Source: Bacteroidales bacterium
GTDB taxonomy: Bacteria > Bacteroidota > Bacteroidia > Bacteroidales > UBA932
Direction of reading: 5' to 3'
Assembly: GCA_017415715.1 (NCBI GenBank)
Contig: JAFQFD010000020.1
Coordinates: 1-64,000 of the forward strand
DNA: 64,000 bases
The translations under genes were made by a program, and so were the position numbers. Positions 294 through 44,713 of the stretch are shown piece after piece. The number at the start of each line of letters is the position of its first letter. Position 1 is the stretch's first letter. The notes under the pieces were generated by a model, which was not told the origin of the DNA, searched no databases, and saw only the letters and a list, made by a program, of their open reading frames with translations.

Positions 294-1499
294 TTACAGT
301 CCCTTGTTAAGAAACTCCCTCAAGGATATATGCTTGATTCCATTTTCATCCCTTGAGGTCAGGAAAGGAGTAGCGCTGATCACATATTTCGGATGATTGT
401 CACGGATCTTCTCCAACGGACCGAATTCCCTGTCTCTTGTAGACTGCTCGCCCATCAGATATGTTACCTGCACATATGCCGTTTCACCGGGCTTGGTGCA
501 GACAAAATCAACTTCTCCGGCTCCAAGGACACCCACTTGTACCTTATAGCCTAAAAAGCACAAATGTTTGTATACAGCATTCTCGATAACCTTTTCGATA
601 TATGAATCCAATCCACCCTCAGCCTTGAGATTACGGAGCCCCAGATCATCCCAATAGACCTTTTCGTTGGATTCAAGAATCTTCTTTCCGTGAATATCAT
701 AGCGAGAAGCCGAATTCAGCAGATAAGCCTCCTCGTAGAAACTTCTATACAGAAGTACCAGATTGCTTGATATGCTCTCTCCCTGCGACTTCATATACTT
801 GGAAATGCTGTTGGCAGATGTCAGTTTACCTGTAGTGTCAGCATAGAAAGCAATGAGATTATTCAGGAAAGGCACATTACGGATGTCGTGACGTTCGATA
901 ATATCCTTAAGCATTATGGTGTTGAATACACTTGATAGATATGCCCAGACGTGCTCATCGCTATCCAGTCCTATCCTGCGAAGACCAGGCAGACCACCGT
1001 AGTTCAGATATTTCATCAGCGACTCATCGCTGTCCTGAAGACTATGAAACTCAAGAAACTCCGGATAGGTCAATGGATGAACACGGATTTCTACATATCT
1101 GCCGGCCAATAACGTGGATAGATCACCGGACAGCATCTTGGAGTTACTTCCGGTGATGATCACATCTGTATTATCCTCAGTGTACCAGCTGCATATGCTT
1201 TCCTCAAACTTCTCTATCTGCTGGACCTCATCGACAAGAATACAGTTATGCTTGCCAGGCTGAAAAAGGTTCTCAATGTAATTGTCAAGATCATCCTTTG
1301 TCTTGATGTTCCCAAACGCCTTTTTCTCCTTATCTACATAGATGACATTTATATCCTCTTCCTTCGAATGCCTTTCGATAAAGTCCTTGAGAATATAACT
1401 CTTACCCACACGTCGAGGGCCAACAAGGACAATGATATTGCCCTTTCCGATCCAGGAATCAACCTTGTCAGCGTAGTGTCTTCTTGTTAAAATATCCAT
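294..1499 (-). CDS. AAA-family ATPase with DUF4143 C-terminal domain
   Basis: About 401 residues. A P-loop is visible near residue 30 (GPRRVGKS), a Walker B-like stretch (ILVDEVQQIE) near 95 and a sensor-like TGSNSKML near 120. The C-terminal half has the DUF4143 pattern, ending in a nuclease-like fold with GEVDFVC and an AYVQVTY strand. These ATPases are common in Bacteroidetes accessory regions; their substrate is not established. I chose ATG 1499 (MDILTRRHYADKV), because the 11 codons in front of it look like leader sequence. A truncated relative lies at 47638-48405. Both have short direct repeats upstream. Confidence 0.85.
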   Translation of the reverse strand: MDILTRRHYADKVDSWIGKGNIIVLVGPRRVGKSYILKDFIERHSKEEDINVIYVDKEKKAFGNIKTKDDLDNYIENLFQPGKHNCILVDEVQQIEKFEESICSWYTEDNTDVIITGSNSKMLSGDLSTLLAGRYVEIRVHPLTYPEFLEFHSLQDSDESLMKYLNYGGLPGLRRIGLDSDEHVWAYLSSVFNTIMLKDIIERHDIRNVPFLNNLIAFYADTTGKLTSANSISKYMKSQGESISSNLVLLYRSFYEEAYLLNSASRYDIHGKKILESNEKVYWDDLGLRNLKAEGGLDSYIEKVIENAVYKHLCFLGYKVQVGVLGAGEVDFVCTKPGETAYVQVTYLMGEQSTRDREFGPLEKIRDNHPKYVISATPFLTSRDENGIKHISLREFLNKGL

Positions 1500-1515
1500 A
1501 GTGTCATGTTTTATC

Positions 1516-1590
1516 GGTAACAAAAATAACACTTACGGACAACAAAAACAAGAGGAATGGGCATTTTATTGTTTTAAGACAACAAAAATA
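1516..1590 (-). promoter_or_regulatory. Promoter region of the DUF4143 gene with three AACAAAAA repeats
   Basis: On the minus strand TATTTTTG (1528-1521) matches the Bacteroidetes -7 box TAnnTTTG, with a CTTG at 1552-1549 about 20 nt upstream as a weak -33 element. AACAAAAA recurs at 1519-1526, 1541-1548 and 1581-1588; the last two are preceded by GAC. The repeats could be operator half-sites. The remainder of the 1500-1883 intergenic stretch holds no convincing gene; ORFs across it are AT-rich and lack homology signals. Confidence 0.4.
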
Positions 1591-1883: not shown

Positions 1884-3914
1884 ATGAAGACATTCTGGAG
1901 AAAATTGAGGCAAGGTCTGGACAGGGCCATATATGAAGGACGCTTCAAGCAGTTCGTATGGCTGTCAGGGGTTTTGATCCTTGCGTTTCTCATTGTGCTG
2001 TTGCTTGCTGCTGTGTTCAGATTCGACCTGGTGGCTGCAGCCCCGGGTGTAGAGGCGTCATCTGGCTCCGCTCCTGTCCTGGTGAGACTGGTCGAGCTTC
2101 TTCTTGATCCGGGTGCATTCGTGGGCAGTGGAGCATATAACTATGTGTTCTTCCAGTTCCTGGTAGTGCTTGTCGGAGCTACTTTCTTCACCAGTTTCCT
2201 TATCGGCACGATCGGCAACCTGTTGAGCCGAAGAGTGGATTCGTTGACAGACGGAAGATACACCTATGCATTCGAGGACCATATCCTCATATTGGGAGCT
2301 GGCAGCGCCCTCAAGAATCTTCTTCACCAGATTTCGGAGACAGGGACGAAATGCGACATCGTGATCCAGACAACACAGCCTCCCGAGGCAGTAAGAGACC
2401 AGATACGCTCATTCAAGATCAAGCCATGCGAAAAGGACATATATGTCATTTATGGCAGCAGAACGGATATGACGGCTCTTGCAGACCTGCGGTTTAAAGA
2501 TGCCAGGGAAATATATATTCTGGGAGAAGACGATGAGCCTCAGCACGATGGTCTGAACCTGAAGTGCTGGAATCAGATAATGGAGGAATGCAAAGGAAAT
2601 CCTGGTGTGAAGCCTTGCTATCTTATGCTGGACCGCATCACTTCACATCATGCGTTTTCCTATAAGAAAGACAACGGATCCACACCGGAGCTCAGGCTTA
2701 ACGTCATCAGCGCGATCGAGAACGCCGTCCAGGGCGTGCTTGTCTCTGGTAAAGTAGGGAAAGTGGAATATCCTACGATGCTTGACAGGGATGGGATCGG
2801 CAAGGACAGCGATGTAAATGTGCATCTTATCGTGGTCGGCATGACGCAGACAGCTTATGCATTCGCTACAACGGCTGCTCACATCTGTCATTTCCCTAAT
2901 TTCAGGACAAAGAACAAGAGGACCAAGATCACATTCATCCAGAAGGATATCCAGGAGGAAATGGATTTCTGGATGGGTCACTACAGCACTTTGATGGATA
3001 TCTCTTATGCAGAGTACAGGAAGTGGGATGAGGCAGGTCAGCCGCAAGTCAAGAAGTTCTATCCGAAGCCGGAGTATATAAATCCTATTTATTCGGATAA
3101 GAAGGGATTCCTTGACGTGGAATGGGAGTTCATTGATGCCGGAGTCGAGGACGCTAACGTCCGCAAGTATATCCGTGAATGCGTGGCAAAAGACGGAATT
3201 TCTGAATATCTCTCATTTGCGGTGTGCGGCCATGATGCAGAGGCCAACGTGGCTGTTGCGATGTATCTTCCTGGCGAAGTATATGAAACAGACAAGATTC
3301 CGGTGTTTGTATATCAGCCGCTGACGCGATTTGTCATGTACCCTGCGAGTGAGACCGGAAGGTATCGCAACATGTATCCGTTCGGAATGAGGGGTGACTG
3401 CTTCGATCCGAAGCAGGAGCGTCTGCTTTGGGCCAAGAGGATCAAGTTCATATATGATATGAGCGGAAAGTATGGCAAGATGGAGGAAGGGGCGGCACTT
3501 GATGAAAGGTGGTATGACGCCGGGAATAAATACGCTCTCCAGTTGTCAAACATATATGCTGCCAATTCGATACCGGTGAAATTCAGAAGTATAGGTATTG
3601 ATCCGTCTGTCCGTTCAGGTCTGACTGCTGATGAGATCGAGATCCTCGCAGAAATTGAACATAACAGATGGAATGTAGAGAAGCTGCTTAACGGTTTCGG
3701 AGCTTTGCCGTTTGTCGACAGGATGGAAATTCTGAAAGGGCTGCTGTCATCTTCTGCGGCGGATCGGGGCGCGATGAAGACCAGGAAGAAACGTTTGAAG
3801 AATGAGTGCTTCCGCCATGCAGACATCGCTCCGTATGGGGAACTTCATCACGAATCCCTTAAATACGATTCAGATATAGTATCAAATTTGTTGGATGTCA
3901 TTAAAAATGAATAA
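1884..3914 (+). CDS. CASTOR/POLLUX-like ion channel with Rossmann (RCK) domains and a C-terminal RyR domain
   Basis: 676 residues. One membrane helix lies at about 22-46. A pore-like hydrophobic region and second helix (about 85-113) run into a linker LLSRRVDSLTDG and then DHILILGAG, closely following the CASTOR/POLLUX layout (helix, KVDSLR-G linker, then HxLILG of the first NAD-binding fold). A second Rossmann-like strand, VHLIVVGM, is near 312. Near the C-terminus, EIEHNRWNVEKLLNGF is the core of the RyR (ryanodine-receptor repeat) domain. In plants CASTOR/POLLUX channels shape calcium oscillations. Here the ligand and ion are unknown. The next gene overlaps it and a separate RyR protein ends the operon. 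A non-channel TrkA-N sensor protein is the main alternative. Confidence 0.7.
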   Translation: MKTFWRKLRQGLDRAIYEGRFKQFVWLSGVLILAFLIVLLLAAVFRFDLVAAAPGVEASSGSAPVLVRLVELLLDPGAFVGSGAYNYVFFQFLVVLVGATFFTSFLIGTIGNLLSRRVDSLTDGRYTYAFEDHILILGAGSALKNLLHQISETGTKCDIVIQTTQPPEAVRDQIRSFKIKPCEKDIYVIYGSRTDMTALADLRFKDAREIYILGEDDEPQHDGLNLKCWNQIMEECKGNPGVKPCYLMLDRITSHHAFSYKKDNGSTPELRLNVISAIENAVQGVLVSGKVGKVEYPTMLDRDGIGKDSDVNVHLIVVGMTQTAYAFATTAAHICHFPNFRTKNKRTKITFIQKDIQEEMDFWMGHYSTLMDISYAEYRKWDEAGQPQVKKFYPKPEYINPIYSDKKGFLDVEWEFIDAGVEDANVRKYIRECVAKDGISEYLSFAVCGHDAEANVAVAMYLPGEVYETDKIPVFVYQPLTRFVMYPASETGRYRNMYPFGMRGDCFDPKQERLLWAKRIKFIYDMSGKYGKMEEGAALDERWYDAGNKYALQLSNIYAANSIPVKFRSIGIDPSVRSGLTADEIEILAEIEHNRWNVEKLLNGFGALPFVDRMEILKGLLSSSAADRGAMKTRKKRLKNECFRHADIAPYGELHHESLKYDSDIVSNLLDVIKNE

Positions 3915-4323
3915 TATGAATAAAAGTCTAGTCTATCTGTTGCTGCTGTTGTCGTTTCTTGCACTCGCAGTATGTGTCGCAGCGTTATGCGATTTTGAAC
4001 TGACTGTCATGTCAGGGTCCATATTCTTTACGTTGTTAGGACTTGCTCTTTTCTTGTTCGTGTCTATGTGTCTGCAGTGTTGGAAAGAAGGATTGTTCGA
4101 GCGCAAGGCGAAACTTGAACAAACTCTCGCCGAGCTGGATAAAAGCATAGAGCAGAAGACGGCAGATAAGACGGACATGGAAAACAAACTCAATGAACTG
4201 AGAGATAAGATTGATGGCTTGAATAAAGACGATCTGTCAAAACGTGTCGAGGAACTTGAGCAGATTAATAAGGATCTTCAGGCACGGATAGATACGTTCA
4301 TGGCTGTTTTAGGAGAGAACTGA
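3907..4323 (+). CDS. Two-helix membrane protein with cytoplasmic coiled coil
   Basis: About 138 residues. Two hydrophobic segments (about residues 5-27 and 34-54) are followed by a heptad-rich coiled coil (about 60-130, with ELRDKIDGLN and RVEELEQINKD). No enzymatic motif is seen. It overlaps the end of the channel gene and its TGA overlaps the next ATG (TGATG at 4321-4325), so the three proteins are probably made in fixed ratio and may form one membrane complex. An in-frame ATG at 3895 is an alternative start. I do not recognise a named family. Confidence 0.8.
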   Translation: MNNMNKSLVYLLLLLSFLALAVCVAALCDFELTVMSGSIFFTLLGLALFLFVSMCLQCWKEGLFERKAKLEQTLAELDKSIEQKTADKTDMENKLNELRDKIDGLNKDDLSKRVEELEQINKDLQARIDTFMAVLGEN

Positions 4324-4613
4324 TGATGGATAAGGTTTATGTACCGCAGCCGATGGACACAGAAGATGTCCAGCTGCCAGAAGAATTGAACGAGCTCGTA
4401 GAGCAGATGGCGAAGAATGTCCATGAGGTATGGGCGCAGACGCGCATTCAGCAGGGCTGGACCTATGGTCCGGAACGCAATGACGCGCTCAAGCACCACC
4501 CTTGCCTTGTGCCTTATGAAGAGCTTCCGGAGTCAGAGAAGGAGTATGACCGAAACACTTCCATAGAAACTCTGAAGCTCATCTGTAAGCTGGGATTCAA
4601 GATATCAAGATAG
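4323..4613 (+). CDS. Stand-alone RyR-domain protein
   Basis: 96 residues, almost entirely one RyR (ryanodine-receptor repeat) domain: YVPQPMDTEDVQLPEEL, then NVHEVWAQTRIQQGWTYGP, then LVPYEELPESEKEYDR and LKLICKLGFKI are all hallmark stretches. In animals this domain is a structural/regulatory module of Ca2+-release channels. Prokaryotic copies are thought to bind ligands in signalling or conflict contexts. Translationally coupled to the coiled-coil membrane gene, and paired with a second RyR domain on the channel two genes upstream. Confidence 0.9.
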   Translation: MMDKVYVPQPMDTEDVQLPEELNELVEQMAKNVHEVWAQTRIQQGWTYGPERNDALKHHPCLVPYEELPESEKEYDRNTSIETLKLICKLGFKISR

Positions 4614-4617
4614 AGAA

Positions 4618-4650
4618 AGAGGCTGGTTCGTCTGACATGAACCAGCCTCT
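4618..4650. terminator. Hairpin terminator between convergent genes
   Basis: A perfect 12-bp stem (AGAGGCTGGTTC at 4618-4629 with 4639-4650) has a 9-nt loop. It sits between the RyR operon and the convergent SDR gene. No long T tract follows on either strand, so it may be a bidirectional, imperfect terminator. Confidence 0.6.
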
Positions 4651-5481: not shown

Positions 5482-5690
5482 ATGAAAATATTGACAAATA
5501 CTCCGTCATCCCGAAGTTTTTCTTGGAATCAGCTTCAGAAAAAACTCTACAATTCCTCTCTGTAACCGAAAATTAATGAAAAATTAACACATTGTCAACT
5601 ACTTGATAATCAGTAATATCCGTTGTTGCTGTCGATGTTGCATATGCCTGGACAGATATCCCGATGTTCCTCTACATTGCGAAAAAATGA

Positions 5691-5726: not shown

Positions 5727-6374
5727 ATGTTCGGAAAAAAGAAGGCAAACAAGCTTATTGATGATATTGACAGATACTTCGATCTGATGGACCAGTCTGT
5801 CCTTGTCTTCAAGGAAGGAGTGCGCAATTATCTCAATTCAAACGCTGCGGATTTCAATGAAAATCTCGCCCGCCTCACTGCCGTTGAGGGAGAGGCGGAA
5901 GTGCTCAGAAGGGAGATAGAAAATGCGCTTTACACACAGACAGCCCTTGTGAGATCCAGGGGAGACATCATGCGTCTGTTCGAGAAGACAAGGAACATCA
6001 CCGACATCCTCAACGAAAGTCTCTTCCAGTTTGAGATCGAGACTCCGTTTGTCCCTTCTGACCTCAATGCAGAGTTCATCAAGCTGACTGAATTCTCTGC
6101 GCTTTCTGTCGAGGCGGTCATCCCTGCGGCCAAGGCATATTTCAGGGCTCCAGAGACTGTTCCTGACAAGATCAGCAGAGCTTATTTCTATGAAAAAGAG
6201 GCCGTGAAATACTCCCAGACCATCAAGAGGACGGTCTTCCACAGCATGCCGGCCCTCAAGCTCAGTGAGAAGTTCCACTTGAGATATTTCGCCCTTCATA
6301 TCGAGAACCTCGCCAAGGCGTCGGCTAATGTGGCCGACCAGCTGGCGGTAATGGCCATAAGAAGAACTCTCTAG
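5727..6374 (+). CDS. DUF47-family PhoU-like protein (phosphate transport accessory)
   Basis: 215 residues, all-helical, with the MFGKKKANKLIDDI start and the DLMDQSVLVFKEGVRNYL and EVLRREIENALY segments typical of the TIGR00153/DUF47 family. Such proteins are usually encoded beside PiT phosphate permeases and are thought to regulate them. Here the next gene begins 1 nt after the stop and encodes a PiT-like membrane protein, supporting that pairing. I chose ATG 5727 over TTG 5721. Confidence 0.85.
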   Translation: MFGKKKANKLIDDIDRYFDLMDQSVLVFKEGVRNYLNSNAADFNENLARLTAVEGEAEVLRREIENALYTQTALVRSRGDIMRLFEKTRNITDILNESLFQFEIETPFVPSDLNAEFIKLTEFSALSVEAVIPAAKAYFRAPETVPDKISRAYFYEKEAVKYSQTIKRTVFHSMPALKLSEKFHLRYFALHIENLAKASANVADQLAVMAIRRTL

Positions 6375-20110: not shown

Positions 20111-21193
20111 TCAGTATTGTTCTTCTTTGTCAAATTCCTGAATCCACTGTTGTAGTTTCTCCTGGAGTTCCTTCTTGTCCGGAAGATAGAGTGCGTATTC
20201 AGTAGCATAGATGTTGGCATCCTCCGGAAGGGTCAGTTTAATGAGAGCGTCCTTTTTCTCTTTGCAGAGGAGGATTCCGATGGTCGGTTTCTCCCATTCC
20301 TGCTTGACATATCTGTTATAGTAGTTTACATACATCTGCATCTGACCTAGATCCTGGTGTGTCAATTTGTCAATCTTTATGTCGATAAGGACATAGCATT
20401 GCATAAGACGGTTGTAGAAGACCAGGTCTACATAGTAGTTCTCTTCGTCGAAGGTGAAGCGTTTCTGTCTTGTCTCGAAGAGGAAACCCTTGCCTAGTTC
20501 AAGGAGGAACTGTTGCATCTTGCTGATGATCTTTCCTTCCAATTTGCTTTCAGAGTATGCTGCCTCAGGTTTGAGACCGAGGAATTCAAGAGTAATAGGA
20601 TTCTTGATGATATCTGTCGGTTTCTCAATCACTTGTCCTTCTGTCGCCAGGCGCATGACTTCATCTTTGTCCTTGCTGAGTGCAAGACGTTCGTAGAGAC
20701 TGCTGTTTACCTGTCGCTGGAGCCAACGGATGCTCCAGTTCTGCTTTGCACATTCAATCTCATAGAAACTGCGGGCATTGGCATCTTTGATGCGCATGAG
20801 GATAAGATAATGAGACCAGGAGAGGACGAATTTGTGAGGCTCGTGCGCTGTAGAGTTTTCTATCCTTAATTCGGTCAACGCTGCTGACCCAATTTGAGGG
20901 GTAGAATAAATACTGTAGAATTTACGACAACGCTTCAATGTTTCTACTGACCATCCCTCTCCAAAGCGTTCTTCAATCTTCTTTGAGAGTTGCTCGAGTA
21001 CTTGCTTTCCATAAGCAGCTCTTTCCTTTCCTTGCTGTTCGTCTTCCAAAATGTACCTACCGACGCTGAACTTTGCGTAAACCTCGGAAAGATTGATTGC
21101 TGTTGATGCTTTTCTTCTGGCCTCCTCAATTACGGAAGCAATTTTCTCAAAGAGAGAATTTATGTTTGTGCCGACGATCTCAGTTGTCTTCAT
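20111..21193 (-). CDS. DUF1016 / PDDEXK-family nuclease (YhcG-like)
   Basis: 360 residues. The N-terminal DUF1016 domain (about 1-170, with YAKFSVGRYILEDEQQGKERAAYG and FYEIECAKQNWSIRWLQRQV) is followed by a PDDEXK-like nuclease core (about 200-350): FTFDEENYYVDLVFYNRLM, then VLIDIKIDKLTHQDLGQMQMY, giving the D...(D/E)xK arrangement. Family members are common in accessory and defence regions. It sits between hutI and the remainder of the hut genes, on the same strand, 25 nt before hutI, in a locally AT-richer stretch. Confidence 0.88.
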   Translation of the reverse strand: MKTTEIVGTNINSLFEKIASVIEEARRKASTAINLSEVYAKFSVGRYILEDEQQGKERAAYGKQVLEQLSKKIEERFGEGWSVETLKRCRKFYSIYSTPQIGSAALTELRIENSTAHEPHKFVLSWSHYLILMRIKDANARSFYEIECAKQNWSIRWLQRQVNSSLYERLALSKDKDEVMRLATEGQVIEKPTDIIKNPITLEFLGLKPEAAYSESKLEGKIISKMQQFLLELGKGFLFETRQKRFTFDEENYYVDLVFYNRLMQCYVLIDIKIDKLTHQDLGQMQMYVNYYNRYVKQEWEKPTIGILLCKEKKDALIKLTLPEDANIYATEYALYLPDKKELQEKLQQWIQEFDKEEQY

Positions 21194-21323: not shown

Positions 21324-21600
21324 GTAAATAGATATTGCCTATGAAACATTGCGTATAATTGATACGCACATTACATATTGGAAAAGCATTTTAGCTGTAT
21401 TCTGTCCTCTAAAGTTTGGCGACTAAAAGAAATCAACAGAAATAGTAGCGAAAGTGCTCGTGCATTGCTGCGCGGGCTTTTGGTTATTCTGTTGATAGGT
21501 TACGCCAAACACCTTGAGGACGGTACACTAAAAGTTCCGTGCTTTTTTATGTGCTTATCTCACGAGCTGACTTCAAGGAACGATATGGAGAAGCCGAAAA
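21324..21600 (+). ncRNA. Long rod-like structured RNA candidate, possibly 6S-like
   Basis: The non-coding stretch between the DUF1016 gene and 21640 folds on paper into one long interrupted hairpin. Stems from outside in: GATA 21361-64/21556-59; GCACAT 21366-71/21549-54; AAAAGCA 21382-88/21540-46; TTTTAG-c-TGTA 21389-99/21524-33; GTCCTC 21404-09/21516-21; TTTGGCG 21415-21/21503-09; ATCAACAG 21432-39/21489-96; and GCTCGTGC 21456-63/21470-77 with two G-U pairs and a 6-nt loop. About 200 nt with a promoter in front is the layout of 6S RNA, but I cannot confirm the family. Exact ends are uncertain. The 82-codon ORF across it is rejected. Confidence 0.55.
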
Positions 21601-21639
21601 TCCATAAGAGAGTAGGTAATGATTGAATACTAATAAGTT

Positions 21640-32312: not shown

Positions 32313-32972
32313 CTATTCAGAACAAGCCGTAATCAAGCGACTTACCCATTCGGCGAATCGCGGACATTTGGCAAGCATTTCATTGATTCCGACTTCTAGC
32401 GCAATCATGTTTCCTTCCAGGACTTTATCGTATTTCTGATTGATTGCCAGCAATCTTTTTGACGGAGCAGTCTCAGGAGCGGAATTAATATCTTCAGGAT
32501 TTTCGAATGAATCGACAATACTTTTTGTCTTTGATGACATATCATCTTCCCAGAGATATTCAAAACCTTTGTTGTTGGAGAACAGCAAAGCCTCGAACTC
32601 GTGCAACTGGATGTACGGAATAAAGCGTCTGTCCGCTATCGATTCGCCTAATGCCTGCTGTAGGTTTTCGACTCTCTGCAAATCATCACCTGATCGCATC
32701 GCCTCGTCATAACCCGGCATATTATTCGGAATACGGAAAAAGTCCACGAAACTTGAGACCACAATATTTCCGTCGTGAGGATTACTCAATAATCCTTTTA
32801 TCGTATTATGGAGATGATGATAATTAACCAATCCTCCTCGTCCTGTCTTGCTGGTACAAATCAATCTAGGGATGATCAAGGACACACCATTATTCCTTAA
32901 ATATGGAGCCAACACCTCATTTACAAAACTCTGTTCTGTCTGTCCCTCGACAACAATATTCAACCTCTTCAT
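32313..32972 (-). CDS. DUF4276-family (TOPRIM-like) protein, partner of an AAA ATPase
   Basis: 219 residues from ATG 32972, whose A overlaps the TGA of the ATPase gene (TGATG). IVVEGQTEQSFV near residue 6 is a TOPRIM-type glutamate motif; VVSSFVDFFRIPNNMPG and QLHEFEALLFSNN are the DUF4276 hallmark blocks. With an overlapping AAA ATPase the pair resembles ATPase/TOPRIM anti-phage couples such as PARIS (AriA with AriB). The family domain differs from AriB (DUF4435), so equivalence is inference. The TOPRIM partner would be the nuclease effector. Confidence 0.85.
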   Translation of the reverse strand: MKRLNIVVEGQTEQSFVNEVLAPYLRNNGVSLIIPRLICTSKTGRGGLVNYHHLHNTIKGLLSNPHDGNIVVSSFVDFFRIPNNMPGYDEAMRSGDDLQRVENLQQALGESIADRRFIPYIQLHEFEALLFSNNKGFEYLWEDDMSSKTKSIVDSFENPEDINSAPETAPSKRLLAINQKYDKVLEGNMIALEVGINEMLAKCPRFAEWVSRLITACSE

Positions 32973-34069
32973 CACAGCTGTCCTCCTATAAGATTTGTCT
33001 CCCACATATCACTGATAGAGTAGTTATATTCATCCATCCACACAGACAGGTCGGCTGAATTCAAACGTTTGAAAACAGTCTGTTCGTCTTCCCTATCCAC
33101 TACGATGATATTCTCCGGCTCAAAGCAGTTAACCAGATTCGTTGACTGGGTTGACAGTATTATCTGACTGCTCTTGGATGCTCTCTTGATCAGAGCTGCC
33201 AACTTATTGATTGCTGCAGGATGAAGTCCTAGTTCCGGTTCATCGATAATGATGACTTCTGGAAGTTTTGACTGGAGCAGCAACGTAGCCAATGCAATAA
33301 AACGAATTGTACCATCAGAAAAGCTATAACCATTCAGATACATATCCGAATTTACCTCCTCCCACTCCAAAGATATCTTAGATGGGGTTACAGGATCCGG
33401 CCTCAAGTTAAACCTCTTGAAGTAAGGAGCGATTGAATGTATCGTACCTTCAATCAAGCGGAAAGCCTTTTCATCCGTCTGCTTGAGCATATAAAGATAT
33501 GCTGCCAGATTTGATCCGTTATCACGCAGGAATGAGTTGTCATTGATCTCGCACTGTCCTCGCATTGGAGAAGAGGAGCTTGTGTCGTGGAAATGATATA
33601 CGGTAAAGCTTCTGAGATAGGTTTTCAGATAAGTTGCCCGCCATTGCTTTTGAGTAATCAAGGCAGATTCCTCGACACCGGAATCCCAGAAAGTCCTATG
33701 CCACAATCCATAATAATCTTTATCTGGTTCTTGACGGTTATTGAAATAATCTCCAGTATTCTCAATGTAGCCTTTATTTGACTGAGCCGGCTTCAATGTA
33801 AAAAAGAACGCATTAGTATTCTTGAAATCCATCAAGCCATATATCTCTTTTGAAACCTTTCGACCCCGATACAGAAGATTATCGATTCCTCCCTTGTCCA
33901 AGGTATAACTGCCGAAACGCTGTTCGAAGATAGCCTTAGCCATCTCAAAGAATGTGATGAAATTACTCTTTCCCACACCATTTGAGCCAATCAGGACATT
34001 CAGATTGGTCAATGGCAACTCCAAGTCTCTGATCGACTTGAAATTCTTTATGATAACATTCTCTATCAT
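32972..34069 (-). CDS. AAA (ABC/OLD-like) ATPase, sensor half of an ATPase-TOPRIM pair
   Basis: 365 residues from ATG 34069. MIENVIIKNFKSIRDLELPL and Walker A IGSNGVGKSN near residue 30 are SMC/RecF/OLD-like. A signature-like SFSDGTIRFIALATLLL and Walker B VIIIDEPELGLHPAAINKLA follow near 250-280, with the sensor stretch IILSTQSTNLVNCF. There is no TOPRIM domain of its own, which instead is the next gene. Such ATPases sense phage proteins or DNA ends. AT-rich compared with backbone genes. Confidence 0.88.
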   Translation of the reverse strand: MIENVIIKNFKSIRDLELPLTNLNVLIGSNGVGKSNFITFFEMAKAIFEQRFGSYTLDKGGIDNLLYRGRKVSKEIYGLMDFKNTNAFFFTLKPAQSNKGYIENTGDYFNNRQEPDKDYYGLWHRTFWDSGVEESALITQKQWRATYLKTYLRSFTVYHFHDTSSSSPMRGQCEINDNSFLRDNGSNLAAYLYMLKQTDEKAFRLIEGTIHSIAPYFKRFNLRPDPVTPSKISLEWEEVNSDMYLNGYSFSDGTIRFIALATLLLQSKLPEVIIIDEPELGLHPAAINKLAALIKRASKSSQIILSTQSTNLVNCFEPENIIVVDREDEQTVFKRLNSADLSVWMDEYNYSISDMWETNLIGGQL

Positions 34070-34163
34070 ACTCAATAAATTTCTATCAGCAAATATAGCC
34101 TAATAATTCTAATTAACGCATAAAGGGAAGTTTCCTTTCCGGTCAAAACTATATACTCATATT

Positions 34164-34502
34164 CTACCTCTTGTCAAACGAGTTCATTATACCCACCAAC
34201 AAAGACACCCCATCAATAATAGACATCACGCCGTACTTGCTTACGCGATTCTGGCAGTCATTAATCTGACGTTGACATTCCATCACCAGATTATACTCCT
34301 GCTGGGTACAATATCCTCTCACTCTAGCATTAAAAGCGATATAATTACTGATCTGATACAGTTCCGTCATCATTGAGCGAAATCTGTTTATCTGAACAAC
34401 ATTATATGCCAGCGAAACCCCATCAACAGTCATTTTCGCTTTCTCATTTCCGATTGCCGCCACCTTTGTAGCCAGGAAGCCAAAGTCAACTAGTTCGTTC
34501 AT
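34164..34502 (-). CDS. Small helical protein of unknown function in defence island
   Basis: 112 residues, helix-rich, with a central basic/Gln stretch (RVRGYCTQQEYNLVMECQRQIND) and a C-terminal hydrophobic part (MSIIDGVSLLVGIMN). No family recognised. It lies between the FRG and ATPase genes on the same strand and could belong to either unit. Confidence 0.65.
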   Translation of the reverse strand: MNELVDFGFLATKVAAIGNEKAKMTVDGVSLAYNVVQINRFRSMMTELYQISNYIAFNARVRGYCTQQEYNLVMECQRQINDCQNRVSKYGVMSIIDGVSLLVGIMNSFDKR

Positions 34503-34626
34503 AAGTTATTATTTGTCCTTAGTACTATACAACAAAATATTTTGAGATTTCATCGGGCAATGTAGATTGGTCAATAGATGATATCGCAGGAGCATTCAGG
34601 CTATATGTTTGTATCTATCACAAGTT

Positions 34627-35553
34627 TTAGTCTTCATACATTAAATCCCTTAATTGTAAGACTGATAAGGATTTCGCCAAACCACCTAGACCAGGATACA
34701 ATGTTTCTGCCGTAATATTCATTTGATTAAGCAGTTGGGTCAGTTGCCATTTAAACTTTTTAGGTATAATGATTTTGAATAACACCAAATCACGGCATCC
34801 AGTTAATTTATATTGTGAATAACTTAGGTCTAATAAGTTCTTAATCGGGATTTCTATGGGTTGATCTTCAATCTCAAAAAACGAATTGAATACTTTCATA
34901 AACGGATTCCCCAAATCAGAGGCCATTAGGAATAGACCCTGTTGTATAGCTATTCTTTCATTGCACAATTTCGGATGTACTGGGATAATTTCTTGAGCAA
35001 CATTCTGTGTCGGAATCGTGCCGATAAAACTATTCCCTTTGTTATATATATATTCATCTATTACGGAGTGAGGAGTGCTTTTCAAATTATTTTCCGTCAT
35101 GTATTCGACTGTGTGTACACGTGTAGTAGCCTCTATGTTGACTCCCCATATCGCACAATTTTCGCTAAAAGAGTTATCCAAGGCCATATATAAGGCAACA
35201 AACAGAGATTTTGAGAAATCCAACAATCGGGTAGGGGCGCCATAATGCTGCATAAGAGCAAGCCATTCAAGATTTTCATCCTTTTCTGGCTGGATATTAG
35301 TTGAATATAATGGATATTTATATTTAAACTGCTCCAGCATATTAGATTCATAAATGTTTGGGAGCAACCTATCGATATAATTTGGATGATGTAAATTTAC
35401 TGTCCTCTCAAGGGAAGTTCTTAAATCCCACTCCGCATTAGCCTGGCCTCTAAATACGAAATGAGATAGAAATAATTGATTAAACGAAACCACATCATTC
35501 CAATGCTCCATTGTGGCAGAGACCACGATAGGCTTTCTTTCTCTATTTCCCAT
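34627..35553 (-). CDS. FRG-domain protein
   Basis: 308 residues. The FRG signature HFVFRGQANAEWDLRTSLER is near residue 32 and the companion block LALMQHYGAPTRLLDFSKSLFVALYMAL near 93. FRG proteins are frequent in defence islands but their reaction is not known. C-terminal 150 residues show no further domain that I recognise. Lies 58 nt downstream of the HNH gene. Confidence 0.85.
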   Translation of the reverse strand: MGNRERKPIVVSATMEHWNDVVSFNQLFLSHFVFRGQANAEWDLRTSLERTVNLHHPNYIDRLLPNIYESNMLEQFKYKYPLYSTNIQPEKDENLEWLALMQHYGAPTRLLDFSKSLFVALYMALDNSFSENCAIWGVNIEATTRVHTVEYMTENNLKSTPHSVIDEYIYNKGNSFIGTIPTQNVAQEIIPVHPKLCNERIAIQQGLFLMASDLGNPFMKVFNSFFEIEDQPIEIPIKNLLDLSYSQYKLTGCRDLVLFKIIIPKKFKWQLTQLLNQMNITAETLYPGLGGLAKSLSVLQLRDLMYED

Positions 35554-35610
35554 ATCCTCTTTCCTCTCTTTCTGTATTGATACTAAGGTATAAAATGTCT
35601 ATCATTAATC

Positions 35611-36327
35611 CTATTTCTCCTTTTGAATCAAATCCTTTAACTCTGAAATGGATAATATTGAATCGCATCGTCTATGAATCATCCTATGGCAATTTGAACA
35701 CAAGCAAACTAAATCATTATGTGGATCAATTTCCACCTCTTCATCTAAACTAGACAGCGGCTTTACATGATGAACTTCAATATAATCACGTCCTATATCG
35801 CCATATACTTCTTCAAAATTGAACCCGCAAACCATACAATTTAATCCATGAATTTGAATGGCCGCATCACGATTGGCCCGACTTCTTTCATATTTGGTTG
35901 TATAGTATTTTACTTCTCTTCCTTCATGGCGCTTATCTAAAACTAAACTATCACATTGAGTTATGTCTCCTTGAACATTAAGCATAAACACTTCAAAAGT
36001 ATCACACTCACATCTTTCGAATGCCATATCCGGGAAAGAGCCAGACTGACAATACAATTCTAACACAACACCTAATGACTTATCCCAATATATTTGAGAC
36101 AAGTCATTGGAATATATGTTTATTGTTGCCGGATATAATATGCCATTAAACTTTAAGGTGATTGGTTTGCGAGTACCTGTATCAGAGTTTTCTATCCCCC
36201 AGAACCATCTAGTCGGCTTAGGAACTGCCGAGCCATGGCGTCTAAACACAGATTGATCACAATGTTTGATTGCAAAATCATCTGAAACCATCTTCCAAGA
36301 GGAAAAATCACCCAACATCTTCTCCAT
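35611..36327 (-). CDS. HNH endonuclease (McrA-like C-terminus)
   Basis: 238 residues from ATG 36327. The C-terminal HNH domain reads GLNCMVCGFNFEEVYG, then YIEVHHVKPLSSL and DPHNDLVCLCSNCHRMIHR, with the zinc Cys pairs and the His-His-Asn-His core complete. The N-terminal 150 residues are a beta-rich unknown domain that might recognise modified or foreign DNA, as in McrA-type enzymes. It begins 13 nt after dptH, so it could serve as the nuclease of the Dpt unit. Confidence 0.85.
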   Translation of the reverse strand: MEKMLGDFSSWKMVSDDFAIKHCDQSVFRRHGSAVPKPTRWFWGIENSDTGTRKPITLKFNGILYPATINIYSNDLSQIYWDKSLGVVLELYCQSGSFPDMAFERCECDTFEVFMLNVQGDITQCDSLVLDKRHEGREVKYYTTKYERSRANRDAAIQIHGLNCMVCGFNFEEVYGDIGRDYIEVHHVKPLSSLDEEVEIDPHNDLVCLCSNCHRMIHRRCDSILSISELKDLIQKEK

Positions 36328-36339
36328 TTTAATGCTCAA

Positions 36340-39300
36340 TTATTTAAACCTCTCATCACTCTCAATCAACTTGAAGTACGGAACATCTTCAATGTAATTC
36401 ACCTGATTTCCAAGCTTACAGATACTCTGGAATGTTACTGCATTGGTAATATATGACATATAACGTTCAAGGTTAGGATCACTAGCTCCAAATATAGACG
36501 CAAGATCAGACTTAGTCGGATTTGTCACATTATGAACTACCCAACTCTTAATAAAGGTTGAATAGTCCTCATCTGTTTTAAAGTCTGACATTCCCTGCGT
36601 CGACAAGATCATACCAACGCCAAACATTCGGCCCTCACTGATAATCTTTCTAAGCGAATTGAATTTCATTTTCATAAACTGATGTGCCTCATCAACAAGG
36701 ATCATCGTACGAATTTCTCTAAATCCGTCTTTCTGATCGCTACCTTTCAGCTGCTTCATCTCAGCATAGAACACATCAAGTACCAATGAAACAATCAGCT
36801 TCTTTATATTATCCTCATATAAAGTCAAATCAATCACCTGGACACTCTTTAACCATTCAAACATAGTTACACAATTATTCATATCATTTGTAAAGATTTG
36901 ATAATCCTGTAACATACGGAATACAGAGTAGACTGTATCTTTCTTTACATCACCTTCTAGGTACTTATCCACAACGCGCTGCATTGTAGGCGCCGGACGC
37001 TCCCAAGTACTTGGGTCCCGAGTTATTCCCGCCTCATCATATGCGTCGAGAATAGCTTCAAAAATTGTACTTGCTTGGACATTACCTAATCCAAATGCCT
37101 TTGATATAGAATCCGCCACTCTATTGGCGGTAATCGAAGGTAAGTTCATAAACCTCATATCCTCCGTAACGCATAACTTCAGAGGATTAAACGGATAGTT
37201 AGCCTTATAACAGCGGCCACCCACAGTACTCAAGAATTCAGCATCGTTATAATCGCCCTTATAGTCAAAGACCAGCATTCCTATTGGCGTACCATTAACA
37301 TTATTGCAGCTTTCCTTAGAGAATTGTGCAATGACAGAACGAGCGAACTGGGTCTTTCCGGTACCCATTGTTCCAATAATTCCCAAATTAGGATGAGAAA
37401 CACATCGGGTATTATTCGGATAGAAATATACCGGCTGATTACCAAACTTGTTATTTCCCACCAACAAAGATATACCAGTAACGACCTTATCGGTTTCTTC
37501 GTTATCATACTCCGAATTCACATTCTCCACTTCATTAACAACAGACTGGAGTTCTACAATCACCTCTGATTTCGGCTCTATGGATTCTACAGGCTCTATA
37601 GTTGTAGGCTGAATTTCAGATTCATCTACATATTCAGAAGGTAAGTCTTCTTCCATGAAAGGATCTGCTTGCTCCAAGTTAATCATTTCATGAAGTTCTC
37701 CAAGGGCAGACATAAAATCCTCGCTAGTTGAAATACTGCTCATCAGCAATTCATTTAACTCATCAGCATTACCCCTGAGGAGATTCAGACAATTCGGCGT
37801 ATTGATATTTATATGACAAATAGGGACATTTTCCACTATCTCAGTATCAATCGCATTTGGCCCTGAATTAAATGTCACCAAAGAAGCAGCTCCCATTTGT
37901 TTAATAGGAAGGCCCTTTTCTAATTCAAAATCCGCGTTTAACAACTTAGCCCTAACCTCTTCTATTTTCTCGTAACTTGTATCTGGAACCATTCCGTTAG
38001 CCTTCATTTTATCCAGATTAGTTAAAAGTTGAGAAGCGAAAAAGACACGGTATACACTTCTGACAAAGTTTAAATCACCATATAATCTCTCTGCAAACAA
38101 TTTATATGTATTTGCCACCTGAATGCCACCCTTATCTGAGTGAATATCATCCTGGGAGAACTTGATCTCAATAGGATAAAGGTACACTTTTGGAGTAGCT
38201 TCTGTCACATCAACACCCATCATCAACAAATCGTCTGATATCGGCTTTCCATTTGCCTTTAACGCGTCCTTAGTAAACAGATAATCTTTAGGAAGTCCAA
38301 TTGCTCCTGTCACCCTCAATATCTCATCTAAAGATATTGGGATCCATATAATAGATTCATTTCGTCCAAGGAAAGTCTTCATTGCAAGTATAGTAGCCAC
38401 TATACTTAACTTTTCTCGTACCTGGAAATCAGTTTGTTTTGATATGTTCAGCAGCCACTGTCCATTCAAACAATTGAAATAATCAAGAAGAACCTTTGCC
38501 ACCTTATCGGTATCCAAAGAGTCCGCCAAGCCACCTTGATTGAACGTATTCAGTATTAGAGATTTATACCTATCAACATGCTTGGTTACAGTTATACTAT
38601 CATATTTGGCATTAATCGTATACTGATCGGTATAATGCACTATATATAAATCCTGTTTATAGAAAAACTCTAAGTCCACCTCCGGATTGAGGAAGGTAAC
38701 CCAATTTGAAGACTGATATATTGCATCCAGGAGATCCTTTTTGTCAAATCTATAGTCTTTTGTTATACAAGTTCCTCCTACAAATGGATTTGCCTTTCCT
38801 TCCCTTGCCTCATAAGCATAGAGAGCATTCATTGACTTAGCTGTCTCGCTGATAAGGTCTCCTCCTTGCTCACCATTCGTTCCAAATCCGACAAGATAAT
38901 TTAAGCCATCACAGTATGTTGCAGGAATGGAAATCAAACCATTCAACGAAAGTTCCGAACGCAATTTTGCAGTTTTTGTCCTACTGACATCTGTTCCAGT
39001 AGACATTTGGAAGAATGTAATATGGCTATACCTGATATTACTATAATCGCCATGCTTACTGATTCTATGCTTGTAAAATGCTACTTTTGAGAATATGCAT
39101 CGAACTAGTTCATGAGTGGTATAGTGATCTTTATCTGTAGCCTTAATCGAGATACTCTCAAGGCATCTTTTAATTGCATCATCAGAATTTAGACGATTAA
39201 GCTTCTCAAAGAAAGTTTCCTTGAGAAGATCGTCAACATATTCATGTATTTCAATTTTATGTACTTGCTGCTTCTTGTTGTTCTTTAGTTGATCAATAAT

Positions 39301-41604
39301 AAAATCGATAATACCTTTTATAACATTCGTATCATCCGTAGTACCAAAAGTATTGATTAGAATCGGGCATTCTTCGTCTGTGAAAAGGTATTCAAATTGA
39401 CTCACAAACGATTTCATTTTATTACAAACAGACTTAGATGTAATATTAAAGGCACGATCGTGACTATTCTTACCGATTGGCTCATAAATAAGCCACGTCT
39501 TAAGCTTTTCAGTAAAATCATCAATACAAGGTGCCATTATCTGATCATCAACAGAAATGTATGGCAACAAATAATGAGGACTGATCAGGCGCAACACATT
39601 ACTTTGATAATCCTTATTATCAAAGCGGCCAGCAAACTCCAATATAAAAGAGACCAGAGTCGGGTGAAATGGAGATAACAATGTCATGTTTTCACCCACT
39701 TTTACTGTGCCAATCTTCGTCAAAGCATACTCTTCACTGCTTAGCGTCTCTCCTGTCTCTATGTTAGACACCACTCCACTGACAGCCTGTAGATAGCTTT
39801 TATATAAGCTTAAAATCTCATCATCCAAGCATGTCAAAGATGGTATCAAAGCCTTATCGCGATAATACTTATATATCGCCTTCAAAGATGACATGACATT
39901 CTCAGGCACCTGTAGTTCCACCGGTATATAGTTGCCGAACTCATCCTTTGAATAAGCTAAAACATTTTCCCGAATGAATTGATCTTCTAATTGAAGTAAA
40001 GCACGATACTCCTTAGTTGTCGAGACTTCTATCATGCCATTAGAAATAACGGAATAAGCTTCTGGTCTTCTTGCATTTCTAAACGAATCTCCGTTCCTCC
40101 AAATCATTTCAAAGATATCAAAAGGAGTCTTAGGCGCTACTTTATTATTATCAAAAACGATCTGGAATTTCACCTTTTTACCTGAAAATCTTACCACTTG
40201 GTCTAGCTTGCCATCTTTTGCGTCACCACATCGAAACAGCACATTATATCCTGGCAACCACTCAATCTCAGCACCTGAAGATATAGTATTCTCGCCTATT
40301 CCGAGTTTGATTTCATCTCTATCTTCTGGAACATTTACAACTATGTCGCCCTTGTTTTTAAGCTTGATATATTCTACAAAATCACCGAACTCATCCTTGC
40401 GTACAGCTATTTTTGTGAAAGTCAACTCATGTACATTGGAATCCTTTCCAACCTCGACATTCACAACGTTATCTTCTAGATCAAACTGAATTGACCTATC
40501 AAATACCTTCTTGCCTTCAGGACACTCTCTTATCAGGTCCTTGATTGATTTATTAAAAGTTATCTTTACTCGAATAACTCCATCCTCTCGACATAGAATA
40601 TATGCGTTCTTAGTCTTTTTCTTCTGCTCAGGTTTGCTTCCAATATAGTCAACAGGCTTAATTTCTATTCCGTCTTTCGTGAAAAATTGAATATTTTCTA
40701 TAACTAATGTTGACCTTGCCTTCTTAGCATTTGCGCTTTCGCGTACTATAGAAAAGTCGAGTTTTTGCCAATTCTCGGGATCTTTAACAATCCTCTGTAT
40801 GAGTTTAGGCTCAAAATACTTAGACAAATCTTCTTCTCTAGCATCCTCATCCAGATTGGACATTATTCTTGAAATGATATCATAGTATTTAGCATTCTCC
40901 TCAATCCTCTTATCGATATCCTGCACACCTGTAACGCTATAAATAGCCTCGTCATTAAAATATGACAACTTATCAAATAAACCGCTCAAGGTATTGGCTC
41001 CAAGGACATCCATCACATTCTCAAAGTCAAAGAGATCGCTACTATCTTCGGATATTTGTTCTGTCAATCTAGTCAAATATGCTCTTAGATATTTAAGTTC
41101 ATTAGAGCTAAGATCGGATTGGTTTGTCACCCATTCATCTATATACTTACTTATCTCAACAGCGTTAAAAGCTTGTCCCACATCCTCCAAACTCACTACA
41201 GCTGTTGCCAAAGTCTCAAGCACTGAATAATCAGATAGAATAAACAATGTAGCATAATTAGAATAAGGGCGATTTACATTAACAGCATTTCTGATAGTAG
41301 GAAGATACTCCTTCCCACTATCATAATCCGCTATGATGAATGGCACAGAAACGCCATTATCATCTGCGTCAAACTCAACCGTCTCATACCGATCCAGGAC
41401 GTCGTCGGGTTTGGCACCGTCGTATATATCCTTAACAACAAGCGGCTTAGTATGGATTGAGGCTTTTATTGCATCAATAAAGTTCTTACGATTTACATCG
41501 TTCTCAATAATAATACTATAATGCTCACCTCTTTTAGCAATGTTCGCTTTAAAGAAGTCCGCTAGGATACGATCAATAAGGAAATTATAGAATGACTGTT
41601 GCAT
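36340..41604 (-). CDS. dptH: DptH-like protein, HerA/FtsK-type ATPase of phosphorothioation-dependent restriction
   Basis: About 1754 residues from ATG 41604, chosen because AGGAG lies 9 nt upstream; it overlaps dptG by 20 nt. The N-terminal 1350 residues are mixed alpha/beta with no motif that I can name. The C-terminal motor has Walker A NLGIIGTMGTGKTQFARS near residue 1410, Walker B MILVDEAHQFMKM near 1635 and a following STQGMSDF sensor. Size, order and this ATPase match DptH (also called DndH) of the DptFGH restriction complex, which attacks DNA lacking phosphorothioate marks. The motor may also be a relative from another HerA system. Confidence 0.78.
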   Translation of the reverse strand: MQQSFYNFLIDRILADFFKANIAKRGEHYSIIIENDVNRKNFIDAIKASIHTKPLVVKDIYDGAKPDDVLDRYETVEFDADDNGVSVPFIIADYDSGKEYLPTIRNAVNVNRPYSNYATLFILSDYSVLETLATAVVSLEDVGQAFNAVEISKYIDEWVTNQSDLSSNELKYLRAYLTRLTEQISEDSSDLFDFENVMDVLGANTLSGLFDKLSYFNDEAIYSVTGVQDIDKRIEENAKYYDIISRIMSNLDEDAREEDLSKYFEPKLIQRIVKDPENWQKLDFSIVRESANAKKARSTLVIENIQFFTKDGIEIKPVDYIGSKPEQKKKTKNAYILCREDGVIRVKITFNKSIKDLIRECPEGKKVFDRSIQFDLEDNVVNVEVGKDSNVHELTFTKIAVRKDEFGDFVEYIKLKNKGDIVVNVPEDRDEIKLGIGENTISSGAEIEWLPGYNVLFRCGDAKDGKLDQVVRFSGKKVKFQIVFDNNKVAPKTPFDIFEMIWRNGDSFRNARRPEAYSVISNGMIEVSTTKEYRALLQLEDQFIRENVLAYSKDEFGNYIPVELQVPENVMSSLKAIYKYYRDKALIPSLTCLDDEILSLYKSYLQAVSGVVSNIETGETLSSEEYALTKIGTVKVGENMTLLSPFHPTLVSFILEFAGRFDNKDYQSNVLRLISPHYLLPYISVDDQIMAPCIDDFTEKLKTWLIYEPIGKNSHDRAFNITSKSVCNKMKSFVSQFEYLFTDEECPILINTFGTTDDTNVIKGIIDFIIDQLKNNKKQQVHKIEIHEYVDDLLKETFFEKLNRLNSDDAIKRCLESISIKATDKDHYTTHELVRCIFSKVAFYKHRISKHGDYSNIRYSHITFFQMSTGTDVSRTKTAKLRSELSLNGLISIPATYCDGLNYLVGFGTNGEQGGDLISETAKSMNALYAYEAREGKANPFVGGTCITKDYRFDKKDLLDAIYQSSNWVTFLNPEVDLEFFYKQDLYIVHYTDQYTINAKYDSITVTKHVDRYKSLILNTFNQGGLADSLDTDKVAKVLLDYFNCLNGQWLLNISKQTDFQVREKLSIVATILAMKTFLGRNESIIWIPISLDEILRVTGAIGLPKDYLFTKDALKANGKPISDDLLMMGVDVTEATPKVYLYPIEIKFSQDDIHSDKGGIQVANTYKLFAERLYGDLNFVRSVYRVFFASQLLTNLDKMKANGMVPDTSYEKIEEVRAKLLNADFELEKGLPIKQMGAASLVTFNSGPNAIDTEIVENVPICHININTPNCLNLLRGNADELNELLMSSISTSEDFMSALGELHEMINLEQADPFMEEDLPSEYVDESEIQPTTIEPVESIEPKSEVIVELQSVVNEVENVNSEYDNEETDKVVTGISLLVGNNKFGNQPVYFYPNNTRCVSHPNLGIIGTMGTGKTQFARSVIAQFSKESCNNVNGTPIGMLVFDYKGDYNDAEFLSTVGGRCYKANYPFNPLKLCVTEDMRFMNLPSITANRVADSISKAFGLGNVQASTIFEAILDAYDEAGITRDPSTWERPAPTMQRVVDKYLEGDVKKDTVYSVFRMLQDYQIFTNDMNNCVTMFEWLKSVQVIDLTLYEDNIKKLIVSLVLDVFYAEMKQLKGSDQKDGFREIRTMILVDEAHQFMKMKFNSLRKIISEGRMFGVGMILSTQGMSDFKTDEDYSTFIKSWVVHNVTNPTKSDLASIFGASDPNLERYMSYITNAVTFQSICKLGNQVNYIEDVPYFKLIESDERFK

Positions 41605-43018: not shown

Positions 43019-43019
43019 A

Positions 43020-44708: not shown

Positions 44709-44713
44709 ATTTA

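Follow-up and report, generated by a model that had tools for sequence, protein, structure and literature searches.

The window analysed here, 64,000 nucleotides of the Bacteroidales bacterium assembly GCA_017415715.1 (contig JAFQFD010000020.1, positions 1 to 64,000 of the forward strand), carries a three-gene operon that encodes a channel ending in a diverged ryanodine receptor (RyR) domain, a small membrane coiled-coil protein and a free RyR domain. The channel is homologous to the plant channel CASTOR in its pore and first RCK domain (RCK1), its C-terminus is homologous to RyR domains through relatives, some of which carry two such domains, the RyR ligand pocket is conserved in the family, and the family genes are enriched in TIR domain neighbours. 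From these observations we infer a channel that would be gated by a nicotinamide adenine dinucleotide (NAD)-derived or other adenine nucleotide bound to its RyR domains, probably in a TIR-type defence; for this reading, with the ligand, its binding, the pairing of the partners, the gating, the ion and the defence function that it implies, we consider the case evenly balanced. The operon consists of the following parts, all on the + strand:

1884..3914 (+), gene 1, a 676-residue RCK channel of CASTOR/POLLUX-like type whose C-terminal RyR domain is diverged
1953..2021 (+), first hydrophobic helix of gene 1, about residues 24-46 (direct sequence reading, alignment)
2106..2114 (+), D75-P76-G77, the motif of the pore loop, which lines up with the D-(S/A/P)-G of CASTOR-like proteins from the same order and has no TVGYG
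2145..2219 (+), second hydrophobic helix, about residues 88-112 (direct sequence reading, alignment)
2271..2624 (+), first RCK/Rossmann domain, about residues 130-247 (Pfam and model matches, profile searches)
2820..3323 (+), possible second fold of Rossmann type, about residues 313-480 (weakly supported, by a VHLIVVGM-type sequence motif and P=0.0035)
3636..3911 (+), diverged RyR domain at the C-terminus, about residues 585-676, containing H593, W596, H645 and D662 (alignments, relatives, residue conservation)
3916..4323 (+), gene 2, a small, fast-evolving protein with two hydrophobic helices followed by a coiled coil
4323..4613 (+), gene 3, a free 96-residue RyR domain (PF02026) with H34, W37, H59 and D76
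4618..4650 (+), intrinsic terminator closing the operon (hairpin fold plus T-rich tail)

As a preliminary description of this DNA had proposed, two hydrophobic helices can be read in the gene 1 protein (P0001). A D-P-G pore loop lies between them. P0001 alone gave weak matches to channel models (Slo-like_RCK, E=0.024, below the Pfam cut-off; TrkA_N, 0.15; a Kch model, 3e-4). We relied on A1, a profile and alignment of 17 family members including P0001, to which 15 of the 16 other members are only 22-33% identical. Compared with all PDB sequences, A1 places CASTOR (5e-7) and DMI1 (7e-7) at the top, followed by the TrkA-domain channel 4gx0 (6e-5) and BK (6e-4), and its positions 4-247 align by hhalign with nine CASTOR-like proteins of the same order (P=6.6e-21). 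D75-P76-G77 falls in register with the D-(P/S/A)-G of eight of these nine proteins; its aspartate column is D in 28 of the 35 covering rows of the family alignment, and the corresponding motif of the relative at locus L022 reads FADSGNQ. In plant CASTOR the filter, AD265S(A)GNHA, is without TVGYG and Ca2+-selective (PMC6697748).

The nuclear channels CASTOR, POLLUX and DMI1 of plants, like their relatives with PF06241 in bacteria, thus share with gene 1 the two-helix pore, the D-(S/A/P)-G motif in place of TVGYG, and RCK1. The likeness stops at about residue 247: the RCK2 region of A1 has no match in the same nine CASTOR-like proteins (P=0.28), the C-terminal half is unrelated and bears the RyR domain, and the PF06241 middle domain, carried by the one of the nine that was checked (L034), is absent from P0001 in the Pfam scan. 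Since pore and RCK1 match yet PF06241 is absent, membership in CASTOR/POLLUX was rejected and the homology of these two parts retained; judged from its sequence, gene 1 resembles CASTOR in pore and RCK1 yet is no CASTOR, with a putative passage of Ca2+, and the 'CASTOR/POLLUX-like channel' first proposed stands in this narrower sense. A plain K+ channel was also rejected, the pore segment being without TVGYG. Kch and BK, which are RCK-gated K+ channels, resemble gene 1 in having a pore followed by Rossmann/RCK folds and differ from it in the filter and in the added RyR domain; MthK and GsuK are further channels of that type. The tandem Rossmann folds reported initially are reduced to a first RCK domain, matched through A1, and a second fold that is weakly suggested by comparison of the RCK1 and RCK2 profiles (P=0.0035 over 18 columns).

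The C-terminus of the channel is tied to RyR domains by its relatives. Among nine A1-matching proteins submitted to a Pfam scan, five (L084, L088, L090, L094 and L093) show a C-terminal PF02026 match above the cut-off, and in P0001, L032, L092 and L095 the match is below the cut-off or absent; L084 fits A1 over pore, RCK and C-terminus. A local RyR hidden Markov model (HMM), built from free RyRs, matches the C-termini of many family proteins, including the full-length proteins of L070, L033 and L032 at 3e-6 or better. Two RyR stretches are present in single proteins of L088 and L094 (by Pfam) and of L093 (by the local HMM). Near family genes, L068:6367-8547 encodes an RyR-like C-terminus with PF02026 above the cut-off and five hydrophobic stretches, and L026:3585-5495 one with PF02026 below it; both were counted out of the channel family, the channel profile being unmatched. 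In genus g261 of the same phylum (L144, L146, L148 and others), 20 genomes contain PF02026, mostly two per frame of about 880-940 residues; a tandem-RyR protein of 896 residues encoded in L093 gave a weak NTPase match.

The product of gene 3 (P0003) had been described as almost purely RyR domain, and PF02026 indeed covers residues 6-95 of its 96 (E=9.3e-39, 132 bits against a cut-off of 27.4); its counterpart in an alignment with RyR1 is the first RyR repeat (domain E ~1e-23). According to a 2026 preprint, the phage anti-Thoeris RyR proteins called RyDEP bind isomers of cyclic ADP-ribose (cADPR), with H75, W78, H100 and D117 contacting 3'cADPR, and six of eight further phage homologues bound 2'/3'cADPR, none of them cleaving it (PMC13232231). 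These four residues align with H34/W37/H59/D76 of P0003 and H593/W596/H645/D662 of P0001. Across the channel family, counted in 47 proteins that match A1 to the C-terminus (a 60-row alignment with split proteins, from which 13, 13, 15 and 16 gap rows were dropped), the four columns keep H593 in 45 of 47, W596 in 47 of 47, H645 in 44 of 45 and D662 in 44 of 44. A 16-row RyR alignment shows as exceptions K for the first H in two channel rows and S for the second H in one. The operon differs from RyDEP in being a host operon with a channel and a putative RyR activity, whereas RyDEP sits in a phage NAD+ salvage operon (PMC13232231).

In animal ryanodine receptors, Repeat12 (R1-R2) was found with AMP-PCP and ADP bound in a pseudosymmetric cleft that contains Trp880 and Trp994, forms the dantrolene site and closes like a clamshell (PMC12627627). 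The operon shares with these receptors the RyR domain and its ligand residues, and two-RyR proteins occur among its relatives; the pore and body are unrelated, and in the operon the channel bears one repeat and a separate protein the other. By analogy, two-RyR proteins and operons of a channel with a free RyR look like two routes to a Repeat12-type pair.

Free RyRs 54-75% identical to P0003 are encoded in 11 viral contigs, two pairs of which look identical over the compared stretch. Ten of the 11 have no family-profile match within the compared 5-10 kb and one has a match; viral free RyRs without a channel are as expected of decoys or sponges. P0001 itself had no match in viral contigs or in plasmids. 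Five of the viral contigs (L190-L193 and L197) have an adenylosuccinate-synthetase-like gene about 1.5 kb beyond the free RyR gene (Pfam-checked in L190); L190 also encodes an S-adenosylmethionine synthetase, and the sequences of L190 and L191 appear to be the same in the part compared. A phage origin of the system, suggested by a faecal record labelled 'Bacteriophage sp.' (L036), was rejected: the record is unannotated and has neighbouring gene families in common with locus L069, which is of chromosome size; we therefore regard it as probably bacterial. Another record of this kind, L099, has RyR only.

The genomic neighbourhood of the family points to nucleotide signalling. P0001 matches proteins in 13 of 101 genomes around the host, two of which (G086 and G095) are CASTOR-like N-terminal matches, and A1 does so in 52 of 393 genomes of the order. 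After 21 of these 52 with N-terminal-only matches (CASTOR-like and others) were dropped, the 31 kept and 8 from the P0001 search gave 39 genomes with 40 loci, in which PF02026, TIR_2 and DUF4062 were counted at the Pfam cut-offs. Against a uniform Poisson null, which ignores the clustering of accessory genes and was applied to related and in many cases incomplete genomes, 27 of 35 PF02026 matches are inside a family gene or no more than 5 kb from one (0.15 expected). For TIR_2, 14 of 62 matches lie within 5 kb, at 13 loci (0.30 expected), and for DUF4062, 5 of 20 do (0.10 expected). A separate RyR gene lies within 5 kb at 17 of the 40 loci, a Pfam RyR only inside the family protein at 5, both at 1 and none at 17. 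TIR within 5 kb was found at 13 of the 40 family loci and at none of a small control set of 13 loci, which are DUF4062 genes with no family gene within 10 kb (Fisher P=0.014). Nine of the 13 TIR-flanked loci belong to the 28 loci with the pore part of A1, and of 8 RyR genes lying over 5 kb away from the family, 5 have TIR within 5 kb. Of ten TIR candidates picked by hand, nine exceed the Pfam cut-off, the tenth (L088) showing TPR only, and a putative catalytic glutamate is kept in 29 of 29 covering rows of the TIR alignment (33 rows, two being the same protein).

Further contexts were seen at individual loci. At L081, channel, RyR and TIR genes form one operon. Locus L134 has a STAND NTPase and SIR2-TIR near a free RyR; the viral-flagged contig L194 encodes two serine recombinases and a free RyR, together with one protein containing two TIR stretches and another that matches family positions 447-653 and no Pfam model; and on a Priestia plasmid a Pycsar-type effector, a cyclase, an RyR and an opposite-strand TIR gene lie within about 8 kb. 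The nucleotide-signalling or conflict context that had been claimed for prokaryotic RyR domains is thus borne out by TIR, DUF4062 and SIR2-TIR beside relatives. The arrangement recalls Thoeris, in which a TIR producer is combined with an effector of NAD-derived signals; unlike Thoeris, RyR would here be the receptor and the channel the effector, and no TIR gene stands beside the window's copy. On another plasmid, from Methylobacterium, a 910-residue RyR-domain protein (L200:3550-6282) is encoded near a large SIR2 family protein.

Several results weigh against a TIR-linked, RyR-gated channel, in addition to the simple null and small control already given. PF02026 has no match at E<=1 in P0001 itself, and the diverged channel C-termini match free RyRs weakly when the two profiles are compared directly (P=0.0025, probability 12%). 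That comparison was given no weight, and the RyR homology of the P0001 C-terminus rests therefore on intermediates and residue conservation; the C-terminal RyR-type motif first noted in gene 1 survives by this route and not as a Pfam domain. The pore part of A1 is unmatched at 12 of the 40 loci and in 12 of the 47 C-terminal rows used for the pocket, and three A1 rows (L028-L030) are without the pore aspartate. The two-RyR proteins of L088, L093 and L094, and also the protein of L090, match A1 only from about position 127; all four have N-terminal hydrophobic helices, and the first three have TrkA_N above the cut-off, so they are perhaps more distant channels. No PF02026 match lies within 5 kb at 17 of the 40 loci, and 23 of the 40 have neither TIR nor DUF4062 at this distance. 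No PADLOC 2.0.0 model matches gene 1 or gene 3 at E<=1, and the scan of eight DUF4062, SLOG-like and STAND neighbours gave a single match, via TPR repeats. Since a gene for a sigma-like protein of about 190 residues is present at seven loci and the RyR gene of the Priestia plasmid follows the cyclase gene, output and ligand may differ among loci.

The window's own operon has neither TIR nor DUF4062 near it. The defence role, put forward from the start as 'possibly defensive', accordingly derives from the TIR enrichment of the family and finds no echo at this locus. The window genome (86% complete) has two TIR_2 genes on other contigs (C5 and C34), one of them a macro-TIR fusion, and no DUF4062 match. 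The fusion (L130:7457-8545, contig C5) lies beside polyA-polymerase-like and low-molecular-weight phosphatase genes and is a possible source of signal in trans.

The operon as a unit is well delimited. The ORF (open reading frame) check of the sequence places three same-strand ORFs at 1884-4613 (+), as claimed. For gene 2 we chose the start at 3916 (3895 in the ORF list), which lines up with its sole detectable relative and leaves a one-base gap after gene 1. If 4323 is taken as the start of gene 3, it shares one base with gene 2 (TGATG, 4321-4325), and its next ATG is at 4326; the 'three overlapping genes' are thus three genes with one overlap. The hairpin 3' of gene 3 (4618-4650; -28.2 kcal/mol, z -6.45) has a T-rich tail, and the case for a terminator rests on this fold, since terminator-like sites number 4 in the scanned region and 2.2 in shuffled sequence. 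The promoter search gave no sigma-70-type site at the operon; Bacteroidota promoters differ from this type.

A chance arrangement is unlikely, since the operon recurs with differing adjoining flanks in L017, a Bacteroidales metagenome-assembled genome from roe-deer rectum and the nearest of the seven named loci that the gene 1 search gave (channel 89%, RyR protein 92% identical to P0003). The DNA of the two loci matches at 1884-3925 (86.7%) and 4316-4610 (86.5%), with no match in 3925-4316 or in the adjoining flanks except 38 bp at 5537-5574, and the match resumes at 5667. In L017 the operon starts 79 bases after a tRNA-Ser gene (5836-5921). In genome G026 (84% complete), in which gene 1 was not found, the match of L184 to the window begins at 4642, 29 bases beyond the end of gene 3, and its contig ends about 660 bases further out. 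From these sharp borders, the operon behaves as a cassette in a variable site. Directly upstream of it, an AAA_14/DUF4143 ATPase is encoded at 294-1532 (-), with no DNA match at that place in L017.

Gene 2 has one detectable relative, that of L017 (27% identity), among 6888 ORFs of 92 loci, some of which overlap; either it was replaced, or it diverged beyond DNA alignment while its neighbours kept about 90% identity. Searches for gene 2 as a named family gave only matches below curated cut-offs, in the membrane and coiled-coil region, and the PADLOC 2.0.0 matches are confined to the same region (best E=1.5e-4; PADLOC gives no cut-off). With gene 2 so restricted and PF02026 missing near 17 loci, the three-gene set is not a conserved unit, and the conserved unit is therefore the channel with its own RyR and an optional free RyR.

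Taken together, the following course of events may be proposed. A TIR or similar enzyme would make an NAD-derived signal of the ADP-ribose or cADPR type after infection or damage; at the window's locus this enzyme would act in trans. The RyR fused to the channel and the free 96-residue RyR subunit would form a two-repeat, Repeat12-like sensor, whose H-x-x-W ... H ... D pocket would bind the adenine nucleotide. The RCK ring would then open the pore, and the cation flow would depolarise or poison the cell, with gene 2 as a fast-evolving accessory, perhaps an anchor or tuner. An NAD-derived nucleotide is the likeliest ligand because of the TIR neighbours together with the Repeat12-like pairing. 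A more specific version, in which a TIR-made cADPR isomer would bind a split Repeat12 sensor and open a CASTOR-type, Ca2+-permeable antiviral channel, amounting to a bacterial cADPR-controlled Ca2+ release, is tentative and in our view unlikely.

The free RyR could instead be an off-switch that sequesters or hydrolyses the signal, as the phage RyDEP does, and thereby limits the channel; we regard this as unlikely, if a real contender. P0003 keeps the RyDEP dyad H75/D117 as H34/D76, and the 11 viral contigs with a free RyR, only one of them with a family-profile match, fit the sponge role of phage RyRs (PMC13232231), but the presence of two RyR domains in one TrkA_N protein among relatives favours a structural pair, and none of eight homologues beyond the DyoEdafos RyDEP was catalytic in that preprint (PMC13232231). 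Slightly less probable still is a housekeeping metabolic channel, in which the RyR and RCK domains would sense adenine nucleotides or NAD(H) for ion balance with no role in defence. RCK channels are classically gated by metabolites, which counts for this explanation. The binding of AMP-PCP and ADP by animal Repeat12 (PMC12627627) and the 23 loci with neither TIR nor DUF4062 also agree with it; the patchy presence of the family around the host (13 of 101 relatives, including the two CASTOR-like N-terminal matches), its strong divergence within one genus, the sharp cassette borders with differing adjoining flanks and the TIR enrichment speak against it.

Envelope or stress signalling, in which the RyR proteins would steer transcription via sigma/anti-sigma partners and the channel would be the sensor, we hold to be quite improbable. 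The conserved sigma-like gene is found at L018, L019, L020, L022, L028 (on the other strand), L074 and L082, and is followed in L018, L020, L022, L074 and L082 by a gene for a protein of 328-383 residues that begins like an anti-sigma factor and carries an RyR domain; at L019 and L028 the sequence stretch stops before any gene behind the sigma-like gene is visible. Against this stand the lack of a Pfam match at E<=0.001 in two copies of the sigma-like gene, whose sigma/anti-sigma identity is a sequence reading, and its absence from the window's operon and most loci. A weak C39-peptidase-like match below the cut-off was seen in the middle of the RyR-fusion region of L018 (8546-10079). That the three genes are unrelated neighbours without joint function would agree with the single relative of gene 2 and with the 17 loci without PF02026, but is hardly credible given the tight spacing, the single terminator, the RyR domains in family proteins and the 27 of 35 RyR matches at family genes against 0.15 expected; it was already disfavoured.

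Elsewhere in the window, about 28 kb from the operon, a defence island at 32313-44726 (-) contains DndF, DndG and DndH-like genes, a HEC-01A/B pair (PADLOC), and FRG-domain and HNH genes. A candidate defence protein of the PDC-S02 or PD-(D/E)xK type is encoded at 20111-21193 (-), and an Rfam DUF805b motif lies at 21585-21618 (+).

A full-text search of one open-licence literature library found no description of the combination of channel and RyR; 'RyR' does not occur in PMC9503650 and PMC7159879, and the passages of PMC7016017 that were examined are silent on prokaryotic RyR domains. The operon offers a compact model for the gating of a channel by an NAD-derived signal through an RyR domain. 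A direct action of cADPR on ryanodine receptors has long been debated. The RyDEP preprint has reopened the question (PMC13232231), and the same pocket is now found on and beside a small bacterial channel. A gated channel of this kind is a candidate effector class for TIR defence and would suggest where the RyR domain served before animals took it up; if the more specific Ca2+-release version is true, one bacterial module would unite the cADPR/RyR signalling of animals with the TIR signalling, Ca2+ influx and CASTOR of plants, which these use apart from each other.

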